Of a DNA stretch of 64,000 nt, positions 10,457 through 29,532 are shown piece after piece. The notes under the pieces are model-generated. The model was not told the origin of the DNA and did not search any database. It saw only the letters and a program-made list of their open reading frames with translations. Made by a program: the position numbers and the translations under genes. Numbering within the stretch: position 1 is the stretch's first letter; every line of letters begins with the position of its first letter. Source of the DNA: Duganella sp. Root336D2 (GTDB lineage: Bacteria > Pseudomonadota > Gammaproteobacteria > Burkholderiales > Burkholderiaceae_D); NCBI RefSeq assembly GCF_001425005.1, contig NZ_LMDB01000022.1, forward strand, positions 311,264 through 375,263, written 5' to 3'.

Positions 10457-11221
10457 ATGAAGGCATTTGCATTCGTAACAGGGGCCATGCTGGCTGGCTG
10501 CATTCCCGCCGCGGCACAAGACTCCGCACCGCTCGCCTATGAATGCCAGCGGGCTGCGGGGGCCATCCGTATCGACGGAAAGCTGGACGACCCGGCATGG
10601 CAGGACGCGCCGTGGACCGCCGATTTCGTCGACATCGAGGGCGGCAGCAAGCCACGGCCTAAATTCCGCACGCGCGTAAAAATGCTGTGGGACGACCAAT
10701 ACCTCTACATCGCTGCCGAACTGGAGGAACCCGAAGTGACGGCCACGCGGACCCGGCGCGATTCCGTGATCTTCAAGGACAATGATTTCGAGGTCTTCAT
10801 CAAGCCGCTGCCGGACACCAAAAGCTATTACGAATTCGAGATCAATGCCTTCAACACCGGCTGGGACCTGTTCCTGCCCAAACCCTACAACGAAGACGGC
10901 CAGCCGGATAATAGCTGGGACATCGAGGGCCTGCAGACCGCCATCGCGGTACAGGGAAGCTTGAACCAGCCCGGCGACAAGGACCGCGGCTGGACGGTGG
11001 AAATCGCCTACCCCCTGAACGCCTTCGCCTCGCGCCAGGCCGTCCCGCATCCCAGGCAGGGCAGCACCTGGCGCATCAACTTCAGCCGCGTCGAATGGAC
11101 CGCCGGCCAGCCGAAGGAAGACAACTGGGTGTGGTCGCCGCAAGGCCTGATCGACATGCACGTGCCAGGCCGCTGGGGTTACCTGCATTTCTCCGAAAAT
11201 ACTTCCACACTAAACAAATAG
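10457..11221 (+). CDS. Secreted carbohydrate-binding family 9-like protein
   Basis: A protein of 254 residues. It starts with a signal sequence whose LAGC (Cys14) is a good lipobox, so it may be an outer-membrane lipoprotein; cleavage after PAAAQ is the alternative. The body matches CBM9-like domains: IRIDGKLDDPAWQDAPW, VKMLWDDQYLYIAAELEEP, NDFEVFIKP, YYEFEINAFNTGWDL, RGWTVEIAYPLNAF, WRINFSRVEW. The ATG at 10457 fits GGGAGG at 10443-10448 better than the ATG at 10451. It probably binds reducing ends or loose glycan at the surface. It is first in the plus-strand carbohydrate locus and is followed by the receptor. Confidence 0.85.
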   Translation: MKAFAFVTGAMLAGCIPAAAQDSAPLAYECQRAAGAIRIDGKLDDPAWQDAPWTADFVDIEGGSKPRPKFRTRVKMLWDDQYLYIAAELEEPEVTATRTRRDSVIFKDNDFEVFIKPLPDTKSYYEFEINAFNTGWDLFLPKPYNEDGQPDNSWDIEGLQTAIAVQGSLNQPGDKDRGWTVEIAYPLNAFASRQAVPHPRQGSTWRINFSRVEWTAGQPKEDNWVWSPQGLIDMHVPGRWGYLHFSENTSTLNK

Positions 11222-24329: not shown

Positions 24330-26736
24330 TGTGTTGGCGATGGTTGCCCTGTGTGCAGCCGGCGCGCTGCACGCGGAAACCATGGACCGCATGGTGCTGT
24401 CGCGCGGAGGCGTGGTGCTTGAAGTATCCGCGCCAGCCAGCGGCATTATGCGCATCCGCATGGGGCGCGGGACATTGCCGGAAGATGCTTCATGGGCGGT
24501 GCCCGCAGCTGCACGCAGGACCCGTCTTCCGCTGAACGTTACGCGCGGCAGCGATGTGCTGCAGTTGAGCGCTGCGCATATCGGCGCCCGCATAGACATG
24601 CGTACGCTGCGAGTGGATGTACTGGACGGCGTCGGCAAGCTGCTGTTGGCCGACCTTGCCGGCCGCTCCGCATTGTCTGGAGAAGGCGGCTTCCGCATGC
24701 GCGGCCGCATGAGCGGCGACGACCACGTCTTCGGCTTGGGCGACAAGACTGGCACCTTCGACCGCAAGGGCGGTGCCTACACCATGTGGAACTCGGACAC
24801 TTACAAGTTCACGCAGGCGACCGATCCACTGTACAAGACGATTCCATTCTTCATGACGGTGAGCGACCGTGGCCAGGCTTACGGGCTGTTCCTGGACAAT
24901 ACCTGGCGTACCACCTTTGACTTCGGCAAGACCGAACGCGGCATGCTGTCGATCAGCGGCGAGGGCGGCCCGGTCGATTACTACGTGATGGCCGGCCCCG
25001 CACCGAAAGACGTGCTGCAGCAATACGCACGCTTGACCGGCACGCCGCCGCTGATGCCGCAATGGGCGCTGGGCTTCCAGCAATCCAAGTGGAGTTACAA
25101 GACCGACGCCGAAGTGCGCGCAATCGCACAGCGCCTGCGCAGCGAACGCATGCCGTCAGACGTGGTCTACATGGACATCGATTACCAGGACCGTTCGCGG
25201 CCCTTCACCGTTAACGGCGCAACCTTCCCCGATATGCGCAAGCTTGCCACCGACTTGCGCGGGCAGGGTATCCGCCTGGTGCTGATTACGGACCCGCATG
25301 TCGCCAATGCACCTGGCCAGGGTTATGCCGCCTACGACGGCGGCGCCGCACGCGACCTGTTCCTGAAACTGCCGGGAGGCCAATACTACTCTGGCGATGT
25401 GTGGCCCGGAGCCGCGGTATTCCCCGATTTCAGCCGCGTCCAGGCCCGCCGCTGGTGGGGCGACCTGTATGCGGGTTTTGTTGGCGATGGTGTGGCTGGC
25501 TTCTGGAACGACATGAATGAGCCGTCGATCTTCAACGTGCCAAGCAAAACCATGCCGCTCGATGTCGTGCACCGGATCGAGAGCGACGACTTTGCACCAC
25601 GCAGCACTTCCCACGCCGAAATGCATAACGTCTACGGCCAGCTCAACTCGCGCGCCACTTATGAAGGCCTGGCTCGGCTGCAGCCGGACGTACGCCCCTT
25701 TGTGCTGACCCGCGCCACCTATGCGGGCGGCCAGCGCTACGCCGCGACGTGGACCGGCGATAACGTCTCGAGCTGGCAGCACCTCAAGACGGGCATGCAG
25801 CAGCTGGTCAATCTTGGCCTGAGCGGCTTTTCCTGGGTTGGCAATGACGTTGGCGGCTACGCGGGCGAGCCCCCCTCGCCGGAGCTGCTGACGCGCTGGT
25901 TCCAGCTTGGCGCCTTCATGCCGCTGTTCCGCGCCCATGCGGAAACCGGCCGGCCCGACCAGGAACCATGGGTGGGCGACGCCGTGCAAGTCGAAATCCG
26001 ACGCCGCTTCATCTCCGAGCGTTACCGGTTGCTGCCGTACCTGTATGCCACTGCAGAAGAGAACAGCCGCAGCGGCATTCCCTTGCTGCGGCCAGTCTTC
26101 CTCAATTTTCCTTCAGTGCTGGCAAATGGCGACCGGCTTGGCGGTTCGGAGGACCAGTTCATGGTGGGCGGCGATTTGCTGCTGGCACCATCGCCGACGC
26201 TGGAGTCGCCGGGCGATTACAACGTTGAACTTCCTGGCAAGGACTGGTACGACTACTGGACTGGGCGGCGCCTGGATGGCAAGAGCCAAACGGTCAAACC
26301 GGATATCGCCCAGTTGCCGGTCTATGTGCGACCGGGCGCGATCATCCCGAAGCAGCCGCTGGTCCAGAGCACCGCCTTCGTGCCGGAAGGGCGGCTGGAA
26401 CTGCATGTCTATCCCGGCGCGGACTGCCATGGCGACCTTTATGCCGACGATGGCATCAGCATGGCTTACCAGCGCGGCAGCTTCCTGCGCCAACACATTC
26501 GCTGTGAGGAGTCGCAATCCGGCCTGAAAATACTGTTCGAACAGCGCGAGGGAAGCTGGAGGCCGTGGTGGAGCGGGGTGGAACTCTATATTCATGGATG
26601 GGAATCCGACGCACCACCAGAAGTTCACGCCTTTGGCGCCGCAGTAGCGGCATCGGTAGACCGTGCGCAGAAAGCAGCCTTGATCCAGGTCCCAGACATG
26701 GTCAATGGGTCGGTCGAGATCAGCCGATCAAGATAA
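24316..26736 (+). CDS. Glycoside hydrolase family 31 alpha-glucosidase
   Basis: Secreted GH31 enzyme of 806 residues. The ATG at 24316, inside the last 14 bp of the permease gene, yields the signal peptide [21 protein letters not shown]; longer readings start within permease coding sequence. The N-terminal beta-sandwich is followed by the barrel with YMDIDYQD, nucleophile Asp399 in [10 protein letters not shown], acid/base Asp482 in [10 protein letters not shown], and the usual beta-domains. It cuts terminal alpha-glucose (or alpha-xylose or similar). In a mannoside locus it may act like glucosidase II on glucose-capped high-mannose glycans. It overlaps the convergent RING gene by 9 bp. Confidence 0.92.
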
Positions 26737-29304
26737 AAAATCACTCGCGGAGATTGTGCCGGTCATTGCTCCGGGCTTCAATACATACGCCGATGCATCG
26801 GGCGGCAGGGACATGTCACCGTTGAACAAGGCTGCCATGACTGGACCACTCTGCCGAATAGCTAATTTTTCCGCTATGGCACCGTCGCCGTCTCGCAAGC
26901 GTTTCAGGAATTGAAGGCTCGACTCTCCTGCAGCACGCTCGATGACGATATTCCCTTTCCCGCGAATGAGGACGCGCTGCGCCCGTGCCGCAGCATGGAG
27001 CACGGCGAGGTCGAACATATTTGCTCGCACACCGCTGGCAAAATAGCCGATCATCGTCGGGCAGATACTGGTAATTGCGGTGTTGGAGGTGGCCACGTTA
27101 TTGAACTCGAGCTTCCCGCGCGAGTAGACATCCAGCCAGTGCAGCGATTTCGACTCCAGGTCTATCGCCATTGGCATAAAGATGCCGTCTGCACCCTGCA
27201 GATTGAACTTCATTTCGACCGTGCGTGGATCGAAATGCTGGCCCTGGGTATCGCTACGCAGCATCATGCCGATAAAGGCATGCTCCAGTTGCTCGAAAGC
27301 CTGGCCGGAGTAATTGTTCACAACCGTCACGGCATAGCGGATGCCATGTTTTTCCGCCATGGCGCAATCCAGGTCGATGAACTCCGACGCGCCATTGGGG
27401 AAGGGCGCACTGGTTAGATCGCCGGAGCTGACGGCAATCTGCCCAAACGCACCCTGGAGTACGCGCTGGTAATAGGAGCACGTTCCAACGTGCTGCCACT
27501 GCGCGTCATAGAACCCGATCGACAGATCCAGGTCTGTGTCGAAGTGCGCTTTCTCCGGTTCGCACCAGTGAAGGAATAGTCGTATGGTCTTTTCCGGAGC
27601 GATATCGATGGTCGAGCCGCGCGACAGCTGAATTGCCGCTCGCGAAGCGGTCCGTTCGTTGAACGGCACCATGAAGGTTTTCAGCGCCGAGTCGATGATG
27701 AAATCGCCGATGGCCGGCTTGCTTTCAAAGCGCGCAAGCAGTGCCCGATCGACGATCGCAACGCTGCGCTTGATTGTTTCCAGCGCAAGAACGGGCCGCT
27801 TGTCACGTGCAAATATGCCGTTGACGACGGAGCCTTTCGGCCAGTAAACGCGTGACTTGGCTTGCACACCACGCGTCGGCAGCAAGGCGAGAAGCGTCAG
27901 GAGGACCGGCGTTGAAAACTTTGGCGCGCAGCGCTCAAAGCCTGCCAGCAGGCCTTCGACAGCAACGTCATCGTCGCCCGCAATGCGGAGTGCATGGTCG
28001 AACCGTCTCGCCAGTTCGCCAGGGCGCTGCAACAGCAAGGCTGTCATGCTGGCGGCATCATTGAGACTGATGGCCGCTTCCAGTTTGCCGTAATACGTCA
28101 GCCAGGCTGGTGCACGGCTGCCATCCGGCGCTTTGCGCCGCACAATCTCGAAAGCCCGCGCAACGTTTGGAAAACGCTGCTTGTATTCGGCTGGATGCAG
28201 GAACTCGCCGAGCCAGACCCAATATGAACGATGGCGCAGCATGTCGTCGATCATCGATGCCGGGATGAGGCTTTCCATGAACTCCAGCAAGGCTCGCCTG
28301 AGCGGACGGCCAAGCTTTGCCATCTTGAAGCGGTAGATTTCCACCGGCAGCTTGAGCGACGCGACCCTATCGTAGTAGCTATGCGCATACAGTTCGCTAA
28401 ATTGCTTCTTCTTCCTGGCTGCCTCGACGGTGAACTCGCGTAGGACTGTTTGCGGCAGTAATCCTGGATCTGCCCCGGAATAGCAGGCGATTAAACGCAG
28501 TACATCGGTTGCGGTGTTCATGTAGGGTGCTGCGGCCGGCAGGGTAATGGCAGGATCGCAATGACGCAGCAGCGTGCCGAAAACATGCGCTATGTTCTCG
28601 CGCACCGGAATGGTGGCCGGGAGCGAGGCCAGGATTGACGGGCCGTATTCGGTGACGATATCCGACAAGTCCGCCACGTCCACCGGCGACATGGCCTGCG
28701 TACGCTGGCAAAAGCTGACGAACAATTCGCGCACCACCTGCTCGGCGGACGTGCCAAGGTCCAGCAACTTGAGTGTGACGTTCTCAGTTGGCGTGCCCCT
28801 GATCGGCGCAGGCTTGAAGAAGGCGGAATGACGGTCGACCTGCCGTTCGCAGATGGGGCAAGCCGAGTAGTTGCTGCCGTCAAAGCACTGGTCGCATACC
28901 ACGTGCATGCATGGATTGAGCACGTGTGTGGTCCCCGTCAGCCCGCAATGCAGGCAAGGCTGGCCTTCCGCTTGCATGAAATGGGACAGCACCCGTTGCC
29001 GCCACAAGCCGTGGGTATCCGCCGGAACGTCGTCGGGAAAGCTGCGGTAAAGCGGCACGTGGGTCCGGTGTCCACCCAGCTGTTCCGCCAATACGCTCCA
29101 GGCCTGCGCTTGCAGCACGGTCAAAGCTTCGCTGGAAATTGTCTGCAGGCGATGGCGCAAACGCGTGGAAATCGCATATCCCAGCTTCTCGAGATTGATC
29201 TCGAAAGCTTCGATGAAATTGCCGGGAAGGGACGCAGTGCCTGCTTCAATAAACAGCAAGCCTTGCCTGCGCAGGAGGATAGCGTGGGAGGCAGTGAAGG
29301 TCAT
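26728..29304 (-). CDS. Large RING-finger and TerD-like domain protein (MXAN_6230/SCO0854-like)
   Basis: A soluble protein of 858 residues. Residues 117-152 form a C3HC4 RING-type zinc site: Cys117, Cys120, Cys132, His134, Cys137, Cys140, Cys149, Cys152, with the typical CPIC second half. A long, mostly helical middle (about 180-550) has no recognised motif. Residues about 559-690 (SRGSTIDIA, TDLDLSIGFYD, SGDLTSAPFPNGASEFIDL, YSGQAFEQLEHAFIGMM) match the TerD stress-protein fold pattern of DLDLS-type acidic and glycine motifs. Similar RING proteins are known from Myxococcus and Streptomyces; their biochemical role is not established. It is single-gene, with tRNA-Pro just upstream. There is no visible E2 or ubiquitin-like partner, nor other ter genes. 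Confidence 0.8.
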   Translation of the reverse strand: MTFTASHAILLRRQGLLFIEAGTASLPGNFIEAFEINLEKLGYAISTRLRHRLQTISSEALTVLQAQAWSVLAEQLGGHRTHVPLYRSFPDDVPADTHGLWRQRVLSHFMQAEGQPCLHCGLTGTTHVLNPCMHVVCDQCFDGSNYSACPICERQVDRHSAFFKPAPIRGTPTENVTLKLLDLGTSAEQVVRELFVSFCQRTQAMSPVDVADLSDIVTEYGPSILASLPATIPVRENIAHVFGTLLRHCDPAITLPAAAPYMNTATDVLRLIACYSGADPGLLPQTVLREFTVEAARKKKQFSELYAHSYYDRVASLKLPVEIYRFKMAKLGRPLRRALLEFMESLIPASMIDDMLRHRSYWVWLGEFLHPAEYKQRFPNVARAFEIVRRKAPDGSRAPAWLTYYGKLEAAISLNDAASMTALLLQRPGELARRFDHALRIAGDDDVAVEGLLAGFERCAPKFSTPVLLTLLALLPTRGVQAKSRVYWPKGSVVNGIFARDKRPVLALETIKRSVAIVDRALLARFESKPAIGDFIIDSALKTFMVPFNERTASRAAIQLSRGSTIDIAPEKTIRLFLHWCEPEKAHFDTDLDLSIGFYDAQWQHVGTCSYYQRVLQGAFGQIAVSSGDLTSAPFPNGASEFIDLDCAMAEKHGIRYAVTVVNNYSGQAFEQLEHAFIGMMLRSDTQGQHFDPRTVEMKFNLQGADGIFMPMAIDLESKSLHWLDVYSRGKLEFNNVATSNTAITSICPTMIGYFASGVRANMFDLAVLHAAARAQRVLIRGKGNIVIERAAGESSLQFLKRLRDGDGAIAEKLAIRQSGPVMAALFNGDMSLPPDASAYVLKPGAMTGTISASDFLS

Positions 29305-29455
29305 GGAATTCGGGGAGAAGGGAAGCGGACGAACTGAATCGGAAGTTAGAAGGAAGCCCGTCCTGAGCCTTCTCGGCCAGGATCGTAATATATTTGCAAT
29401 TGGGGAGCAAGGGGGAAATACGGTCAGCGGCCAGGGGCTGAAGGGAAGGATTCCG

Positions 29456-29532
29456 TGGTCGGGGTGAGAGGATTCGAACCTCCGGCCTCTACGTCCCGAA
29501 CGTAGCGCTCTACCGGGCTAAGCTACACCCCG
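29456..29532 (-). tRNA. tRNA-Pro (CGG)
   Basis: On the minus strand the sequence begins CGGGGTGTAGCTTAGCCCGG and folds as a full cloverleaf. The anticodon stem CTACG/CGTAG encloses loop TTCGGGA, giving anticodon CGG (proline). The T loop GGTTCGAATCC and acceptor CGGGGTG/CACCCCG are intact, and CCA is encoded. Total 77 nt. Confidence 0.97.

Follow-up and report, generated by a model that had tools for sequence, protein, structure and literature searches.

A gene of Duganella sp. Root336D2 and a stem-loop RNA of 64 nucleotides (nt) lying directly ahead of it probably constitute a ribonucleoprotein of the Ro/Y type, devoted to the surveillance or repair of RNA, presumably transfer RNA (tRNA). 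Both elements are located in the window, that is, the whole stretch of 64,000 nt that was analyzed (contig NZ_LMDB01000022.1, positions 311,264 to 375,263 of the forward strand). Computational analysis yielded a match of the protein fold, a covarying RNA, a strict linkage of this RNA to the gene, and a YrlA-like module in the RNA of some relatives. A preliminary description of the window had presented the protein as a RING finger joined to a TerD-like domain by a helical middle; the RNA was not mentioned there and is the main new result. The principal features are as follows, in positions of the window.

29313..29376, minus strand: structured RNA of about 64 nt, a Y-RNA-like stem-loop recognized by covariation and ending 8 nt before the ATG
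26728..29304, minus strand: coding sequence with ATG start for an 858-amino acid (aa) RING-TROVE-TerD protein (NF041916), from the open reading frame and the family profile
27664..28737, minus strand: predicted TROVE-like HEAT-repeat ring, residues 190-547, from structural alignment of models
27055..27606, minus strand: TerD-fold beta sandwich, residues 567-750, from the model with Foldseek and VIA
28849..28956, minus strand: C3HC4 RING, residues 117-152, from a Pfam profile and the ligand pattern

Approximately 115 nt ahead of the gene were strongly conserved in three near relatives, and the same stem-loop recurred in other Oxalobacteraceae and in Myxococcota. In the RNA, an internal loop separates the outer stem of 7 pairs from an inner stem of 9 pairs, the arms of which enclose a loop of 19 nt in the window copy; the motif CTTCCTTCT begins in the inner stem and extends into the loop. 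In an alignment of 20 sequences, 96.9% of cells were paired, and 35 cells were changed on both sides compared with a mean of 9.0 after shuffling; for either value, none of 500 shuffles was as high. Changes on both sides were found at 7 of the 16 pairs (6 of 500 shuffles as high), and slid controls paired 42-54% of cells. When the window RNA was searched against Rfam, no family was matched at the gathering level, and E ≤ 10 yielded two chance-level matches only.

The gene and the RNA are strictly linked. Model R1 was made from 20 RING-clade copies only and model R2 from 42 matches. A scan of 294 genomes of the window's taxonomic family with R1 found the RNA in 12 genomes (E ≤ 0.01), each with a single copy that adjoined the family gene, intact or decayed, just upstream of it. 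Eleven of these genomes were also among the 12 that scored above the protein cut-off. In the twelfth protein carrier (G009), which gave no RNA match, the gene is cut at the contig start, and G181 (G181:C77:83241-84371) holds a decayed gene in two sub-cut-off fragments with the RNA ahead, the first fragment being about 195 nt downstream. Several of the copies found in this strictly filtered scan are R1 seeds or near-copies of them, and the weight of this linkage therefore lies in the absence of the RNA elsewhere.

The wider family set comprised 57 loci, two of which were met twice (L003 = L122, L011 = L121). At E ≤ 0.1, R1 recovered 15 distant loci outside its seed (L074, L075, L076, L077, L078, L080, L090, L093, L094, L104, L105, L107, L112, L115 and L116), RING-less bacteria and phages included, with the RNA within 500 nt of the gene in each; at L105 it overlaps the called gene start, which was probably called too early. 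Six further loci (L081, L082, L084, L096, L108 and L109) were added at E ≤ 0.01 by R2, which paired 96.0% of cells with 164 two-sided cells in an alignment that was itself fitted to the structure. Overall, the two models placed the RNA at 47 of the 57 loci, and 55 of 58 matches at E ≤ 0.1 lay within 700 nt of the gene on the same strand. Of the remaining three, two are from one locus with a tandem gene pair, met as both L011 and L121, in which the RNA precedes the first gene copy; the third is a second match at L108. None of 20 control loci of 3-4 kb each (17 TerD-only, 3 Rsr) carried the RNA.

The location of the stem-loop also suggests another explanation, namely that it is a cis-acting leader only: binding by the protein, or by some other factor, would regulate how the gene's own messenger RNA (mRNA) is translated, no free RNA partner being made. 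Consistent with this, the window RNA ends 8 nt before the ATG in an apparent mRNA leader with no terminator between, the gap in L007 and L016 is too short for a terminator, and 42 of the 55 close matches lie upstream of the gene. However, the other 13 lie downstream, and eight loci carry two or three copies. In several loci, among them L005, L009, L010 and L014, a hairpin that by eye resembles a terminator and has a T run separates the RNA from the gene, and runs of at least five T were found between the two in 20 of the 39 loci with an upstream match. Moreover, the Rfam family YrlA, which the RNA resembles in three relatives, is typed by Rfam as "Gene; sRNA." A function as leader only is considered unlikely, and the RNA of the window's clade could act both in cis and in trans.

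The resemblance to YrlA was observed in three myxococcal, RING-less relatives (L107, L108 and L109), in which the enlarged loop matches the tRNA-like module of YrlA (RF02553), a family described by Rfam as "Y RNA-like." The matches scored 30.8-37.8 bits (best E value, 9.3e-5) at the places that R2 marks, and that of L108 spans the model end to end (1-114). In L107, a tRNA match extending across two copies also exceeded its cut-off. It is because of this module that the RNA is regarded as Y-like. In the simplest reading, it is a Y-type RNA with a putative protein-binding stem that is particular to the family and a tRNA-like module that is optional and absent from the window copy. A second YrlA-like match, also found by R2, lies 3.3 kb from the gene in L108 (5536-5640, minus strand) and is perhaps a free Y-like RNA copy. 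The multi-copy RNA of megaphage L080 had no Rfam match.

The helical middle of the protein had been described as being of unknown nature; the structural comparison points instead to a TROVE-like fold. The whole chain was modeled by AlphaFold from a 15-sequence alignment (mean predicted local distance difference test score, pLDDT, 77.6), and the middle (residues 170-556, 387 aa) was modeled alone (pLDDT 83.8) and re-aligned by VIA against 946 chains. Ranks 1-5 were all Ro60/TROVE (2nvo, 9l5y, 9kop, 9nen and 1yvp), with 273-292 of the 387 residues aligned at Z 8.6-11.9 and a root-mean-square deviation (rmsd) of 4.1-6.5. Deinococcus Rsr (2nvo) gave Z 11.9 and rmsd 4.8, and the Ro60 of Thermus phage phiLo (9l5y) gave Z 11.2 and rmsd 4.1, both over 278 residues, compared with Z 8.2 over 98 residues for the best unrelated row. 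With the whole chain, Ro60/TROVE occupied rows 7, 8, 9, 11, 15, 17 and 21 (323-376 residues, rmsd 15-19). Ro60 is described as combining a vWFA domain with a TROVE domain, the latter a toroid of HEAT repeats (PMC11277228). Pfam found no vWA domain in the window protein, where the TerD fold sits at that place. Since both the vWA domain and a sequence match are missing, membership in Ro60 is not claimed, and the TROVE-like fold of the middle is predicted with good but not complete confidence.

Several observations weigh against a Ro/Y-type ribonucleoprotein. With regard to the protein, no Pfam PF05731 match was found in it, hhalign against three Rsr proteins only gave a probability of 0.1%, a 28-sequence family profile recovered no Ro60 chain, and Foldseek on the middle alone returned nothing significant (best E value, 0.037); helical repeats at Z below about 13 in VIA may reflect a mere common arrangement. 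With regard to the RNA, the YrlA matches of 31-38 bits are below the Rfam gathering cut-off of 69 and occur only in RING-less relatives, the window RNA has neither an Rfam match nor a tRNA-like module, and the genome of L109 (G385) also holds an ordinary Rsr on another contig. No RNA match was obtained at 10 of the 57 loci (L079, L083, L085, L086, L091, L092, L095, L097, L106, which is at a contig edge, and L110), although L079 has a weak R1 match (E 5.6) upstream of its gene, and the second gene of the tandem pair is without an RNA of its own. As for the context described below, a tRNA gene within about 8 kb is lacking in three of the nine phage relatives, and a sigma-54 site is present at one of the 57 loci only, that of Variovorax.

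The C-terminal TerD-like domain of the preliminary description was confirmed by fold. Foldseek matched residues ~567-750 to five chains at E ≤ 0.001 (7e-5 to 8e-4), four of them titled TerD or TerD-like and the fifth (2qng, SAV2460) titled "unknown function"; VIA gave Z 12.3-15.6 for the five entries. Pfam TerD (PF02342) had no match in the protein at E ≤ 5. The stand-alone TerD proteins 2kxt and 3ibz have the same beta-sandwich fold over about 160 residues, whereas the TerD of the window is embedded in an 858-aa chain and lacks a Pfam TerD score. In the whole-chain list, 9a6r_B and 7jtk_A, the titles of which are not TerD, reached VIA Z values of 15.8 and 14.2, respectively, across the TerD region. 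Two segments complete the chain.

29077..29304, minus strand: N-terminal helical segment, residues 1-76 (block-mean pLDDT 82-90 over residues 1-70)
26731..27027, minus strand: C-terminal segment, residues 760-858 (whole-chain Ro60 alignments extend to residue 832-858)

The presence of a TerD fold had led to the proposal of a Ter-type stress scaffold, acting in membrane damage or against invaders. Relatives are carried on plasmids and phages, and two Deinococcus relatives lie near genes of interest in this respect, one near the DISARM gene drmD and another near TerB. Nevertheless, no stand-alone TerD was found in the window genome, and PADLOC models matched the window protein with 0 families at E ≤ 1. 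Neighborhood comparison of 20 loci found no neighbor cluster common to at least three of them, except among four close relatives, L009, L010, L011 and L014 (gene calling was poor in L076); Pfam analysis of 19 neighbor proteins of four RING-less loci also found nothing in common. Such a scaffold would, in addition, leave the RNA and the TROVE ring unexplained. The proposal is unsupported and is judged highly improbable. Pairs of vWA and AAA/MoxR ATPase genes were noted near two relatives (L074 16937-20061, minus strand; L096 12554-15935, minus strand).

The full C3HC4 RING of the preliminary description, Cys117 to Cys152, was verified. Its eight ligands (C117, C120, C132, H134, C137, C140, C149 and C152) did not vary among the 15 aligned relatives, and Prok-RING_4 (PF14447) scored 62.3 bits against a gathering cut-off of 27. 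The block-mean pLDDT of residues 81-160 was 32-47, and the RING call accordingly draws on ligand pattern and profile rather than on predicted structure. The full ligand set was present in 32 of the 57 rows of the wider family. In five more, from Variovorax, Vibrio, one Deinococcus, Hymenobacter and phage SCTP-2, ligands 3, 4, 7 and 8 alone are retained. Since exactly this set of four makes up one complete zinc site of a cross-brace RING, the retained pattern supports a true RING. In the remaining 20 rows (8 phages and 12 bacterial loci), the RING is lost or too changed to read, two Deinococcus rows among them retaining some cysteines. L081, L086 and L097 are without their N-terminus in this alignment, and at full length L081 and L086 have no RING. 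In a tree without the RING columns (52 rows, L017, L097, L106, L121 and L122 having been dropped; a quick search with several long branches), the 29 full-RING rows fell on one side of one branch, supported by 94 in the Shimodaira-Hasegawa-like approximate likelihood ratio test (SH-aLRT).

It could be supposed from the complete ligand set that the protein is a bacterial E3-type ligase, in which the RING marks proteins and TROVE and TerD are targeting parts only. Indeed, the closest solved relatives by profile are eukaryotic E3 RINGs such as BIRC7 (4auq), which have the same C3HC4 pattern (E values from 0.0016 to 1.9 among the matches listed, 60 of 78 rows). E3 RINGs usually carry a linchpin arginine or lysine right after the last cysteine. 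In all 32 full RINGs of the family this residue is E, N, H or G, and never arginine or lysine, which argues against a standard E3. Furthermore, the core of the protein persists in 25 of 57 rows that are without the full ligand set. Judged from the RING residues and their distribution in the family, an E3 ligase is a very doubtful explanation, and the RING, a clade-specific feature, more likely serves for protein interaction than as a standard ubiquitin ligase. A Mov34/MPN/PAD-1 gene, possibly ubiquitin-related, was observed about 6 kb from the Hymenobacter relative (L092 16975-18711, plus strand).

The window protein is a member of an existing family. It scored 959.1 bits against the NF041916 profile (curated cut-off, 600), with residues 7-855 aligned to positions 2-840 of 842; NCBIfam names this family "MXAN_6230/SCO0854 family RING domain-containing protein." Prok-RING_4 was the sole Pfam family above its cut-off. 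The system had been called poorly described, which holds, but the family was already catalogued. No paper was found under the names MXAN_6230 and SCO0854, and searches on TerD with TROVE, Prok-RING and related terms gave no work on the family among the matches listed, the stem-loop RNA being outside these searches. The Pfam text for Prok-RING_4 reportedly already suggests TROVE-like repeats, a TerD domain and possible RNA processing; it is not known to mention an RNA partner.

The gene is single-copy in the window genome, as had been stated (second match at E 0.4), and no PF05731 TROVE protein was found there. Its occurrence is sporadic: 12 of the 294 genomes of the taxonomic family and 6 of 188 genomes of one myxococcal phylum sample contained members above the cut-off. 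Duganella and Massilia are the closest named kin, and further loci were seen in scattered bacteria, including Oxalobacteraceae, Myxococcota, Streptomyces, Deinococcus, Vibrio and Niallia, and in phages. One locus (L011 5398-7974 and 7989-10580; G138:C118:148826-153978) holds two diverged family genes in tandem, for which a single RNA was found. PHROG phrog_33734, of unknown function, matches residues 312-780 of the window protein (E 2.5e-60) as well as phage relatives, which, unlike the window protein, lack the RING. Scanning IMG/VR with query A1 and with a phage protein recovered no relatives.

The genomic context of the relatives was also examined for RNA-related genes. In six of the nine distinct records from the phage collection, tRNA genes occur within about 8 kb of the family gene, and in three of these six (RcXuper, RpAliso and a gut phage fragment) transfer-messenger RNA (tmRNA) is near it as well.

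L079 3216-3632, L081 2875-3181 and L084 808-1108: phage tmRNA genes near the TROVE-TerD gene, with the best permuted-type match in L081

The phage gene lies nearer to tRNAs than expected from random placement (Fisher p 0.0046, 6 independent lineages, 4 of 6 within 5 kb), in a test that used listed tRNAs only and left out WXIN (tRNAs unlisted), a 16-kb fragment and RpAliso (kin of RcXuper). The nearest tRNA among the matches listed is about 60 kb away in XacN1 and about 57 kb away in SCTP-2. Phage Weasels2 has RtcB 3 kb from the family gene, and an RNA ligase gene is present within 10 kb in one Vibrio and one Mycolicibacterium plasmid relative. In a Variovorax relative, three small genes separate the family gene from a divergently oriented rtcR, and the gene start is preceded by a perfect -24/-12 sigma-54 site. 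RtcR is reported to be activated by tRNA fragments and to regulate the RNA repair operon rsr-yrlBA-rtcBA of Salmonella (PMC7790460). According to PMC7824862, ROT/TROVE proteins of jumbo phages belong to an RNA-repair platform in which the partner is tRNA-like, and TerD may sense a nucleotide-type signal. These contexts are supporting hints, not proof, of an RNA role at the window locus.

Control of the whole family by RtcR was considered and rejected, as the perfect site was present only in Variovorax; AAA+ regulators near L104 and L113 resemble RtcR over the AAA+ part only, that of L104 being a response regulator. RtcB co-occurred with the gene in 12 of 12 protein carriers, compared with 106 of 282 other genomes, and within the window's genus in 4 of 4 carriers against 11 of 22 others, kinship being uncorrected; this co-occurrence is weak. 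In G235, RtcB is about 15 kb from the family gene (G235:C1:4820130-4821254 and 4836190-4838763). The window itself contains a tRNA gene near the family gene.

29456-29532, minus strand: tRNA-Pro(cgg), ending 152 nt before the gene on the same strand

Joint transcription of the gene with this tRNA was rejected as a functional link at the window locus because its spacing is not kept in near relatives: the tRNA is 2,053 nt away in the nearest relative (L003), and none lies within 8 kb in L004. Conservation in the four loci compared covers the ~115 nt before the gene, not tRNA-Pro. ARAGORN also called a tRNA-Pro within the family gene of L113, toward its 5' end (10805-10878, minus strand), a call that is probably false.

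Taken together, the TROVE-like ring, the dedicated RNA, the YrlA-like module, the phage tRNA and tmRNA genes, and rtcR with its sigma-54 site point to RNA biology. In a Ro/Y-type ribonucleoprotein, the TROVE-like HEAT ring would bind the stem of its own Y-like RNA, as the fold and the strict linkage suggest. By analogy with Ro60/Rsr, the ring probably captures small RNAs that are misfolded or broken, tRNAs being the likeliest, which would be held, sorted or passed to repair or decay enzymes. The RNA or partners of the RING may gate or route the damaged RNAs. TerD occupies the place of vWA in Ro60. A wider proposal is put forward tentatively: proteins with TROVE and TerD and their own Y-like RNA might form a separate class of Ro-type ribonucleoproteins in bacteria and large phages. 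Phages, which have the gene near their own tRNA genes, would use it to guard or repair tRNAs cleaved by the host. In one bacterial clade, the RING, akin to the one-zinc forms of other relatives, would couple a signal of RNA damage to partner proteins, and a RING protein would thus be at work in bacterial RNA surveillance.

Animals and some bacteria are known to possess Ro60 and Y RNAs. If the proposed ribonucleoprotein is real, the Ro60/Y class would be extended to scattered bacteria and to phages, the second domain being a different one and a RING being added, and a family known by name only would gain a testable partner and function. The minimal 64-nt RNA may also serve as a simple system in which to study the pairing of a Y-type RNA with a TROVE ring.

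Compared with known systems, one family relative has a nearby rtcR, the regulator of the Salmonella rsr-yrlBA-rtcBA operon. Similarity to Ro60/Rsr is undetectable in sequence by Pfam, hhalign or profile search, and the family differs in having TerD where Ro60 has vWA, plus a RING in one clade. The RNA stem of the family differs from Y RNA by its own conserved motif (CUUCCUUCU), and the tRNA-like YrlA module is shared by three relatives, the window copy being without it. What the family has in common with Ro60/Rsr is, by structure, a TROVE-type HEAT ring and, beside the gene, a dedicated structured RNA.
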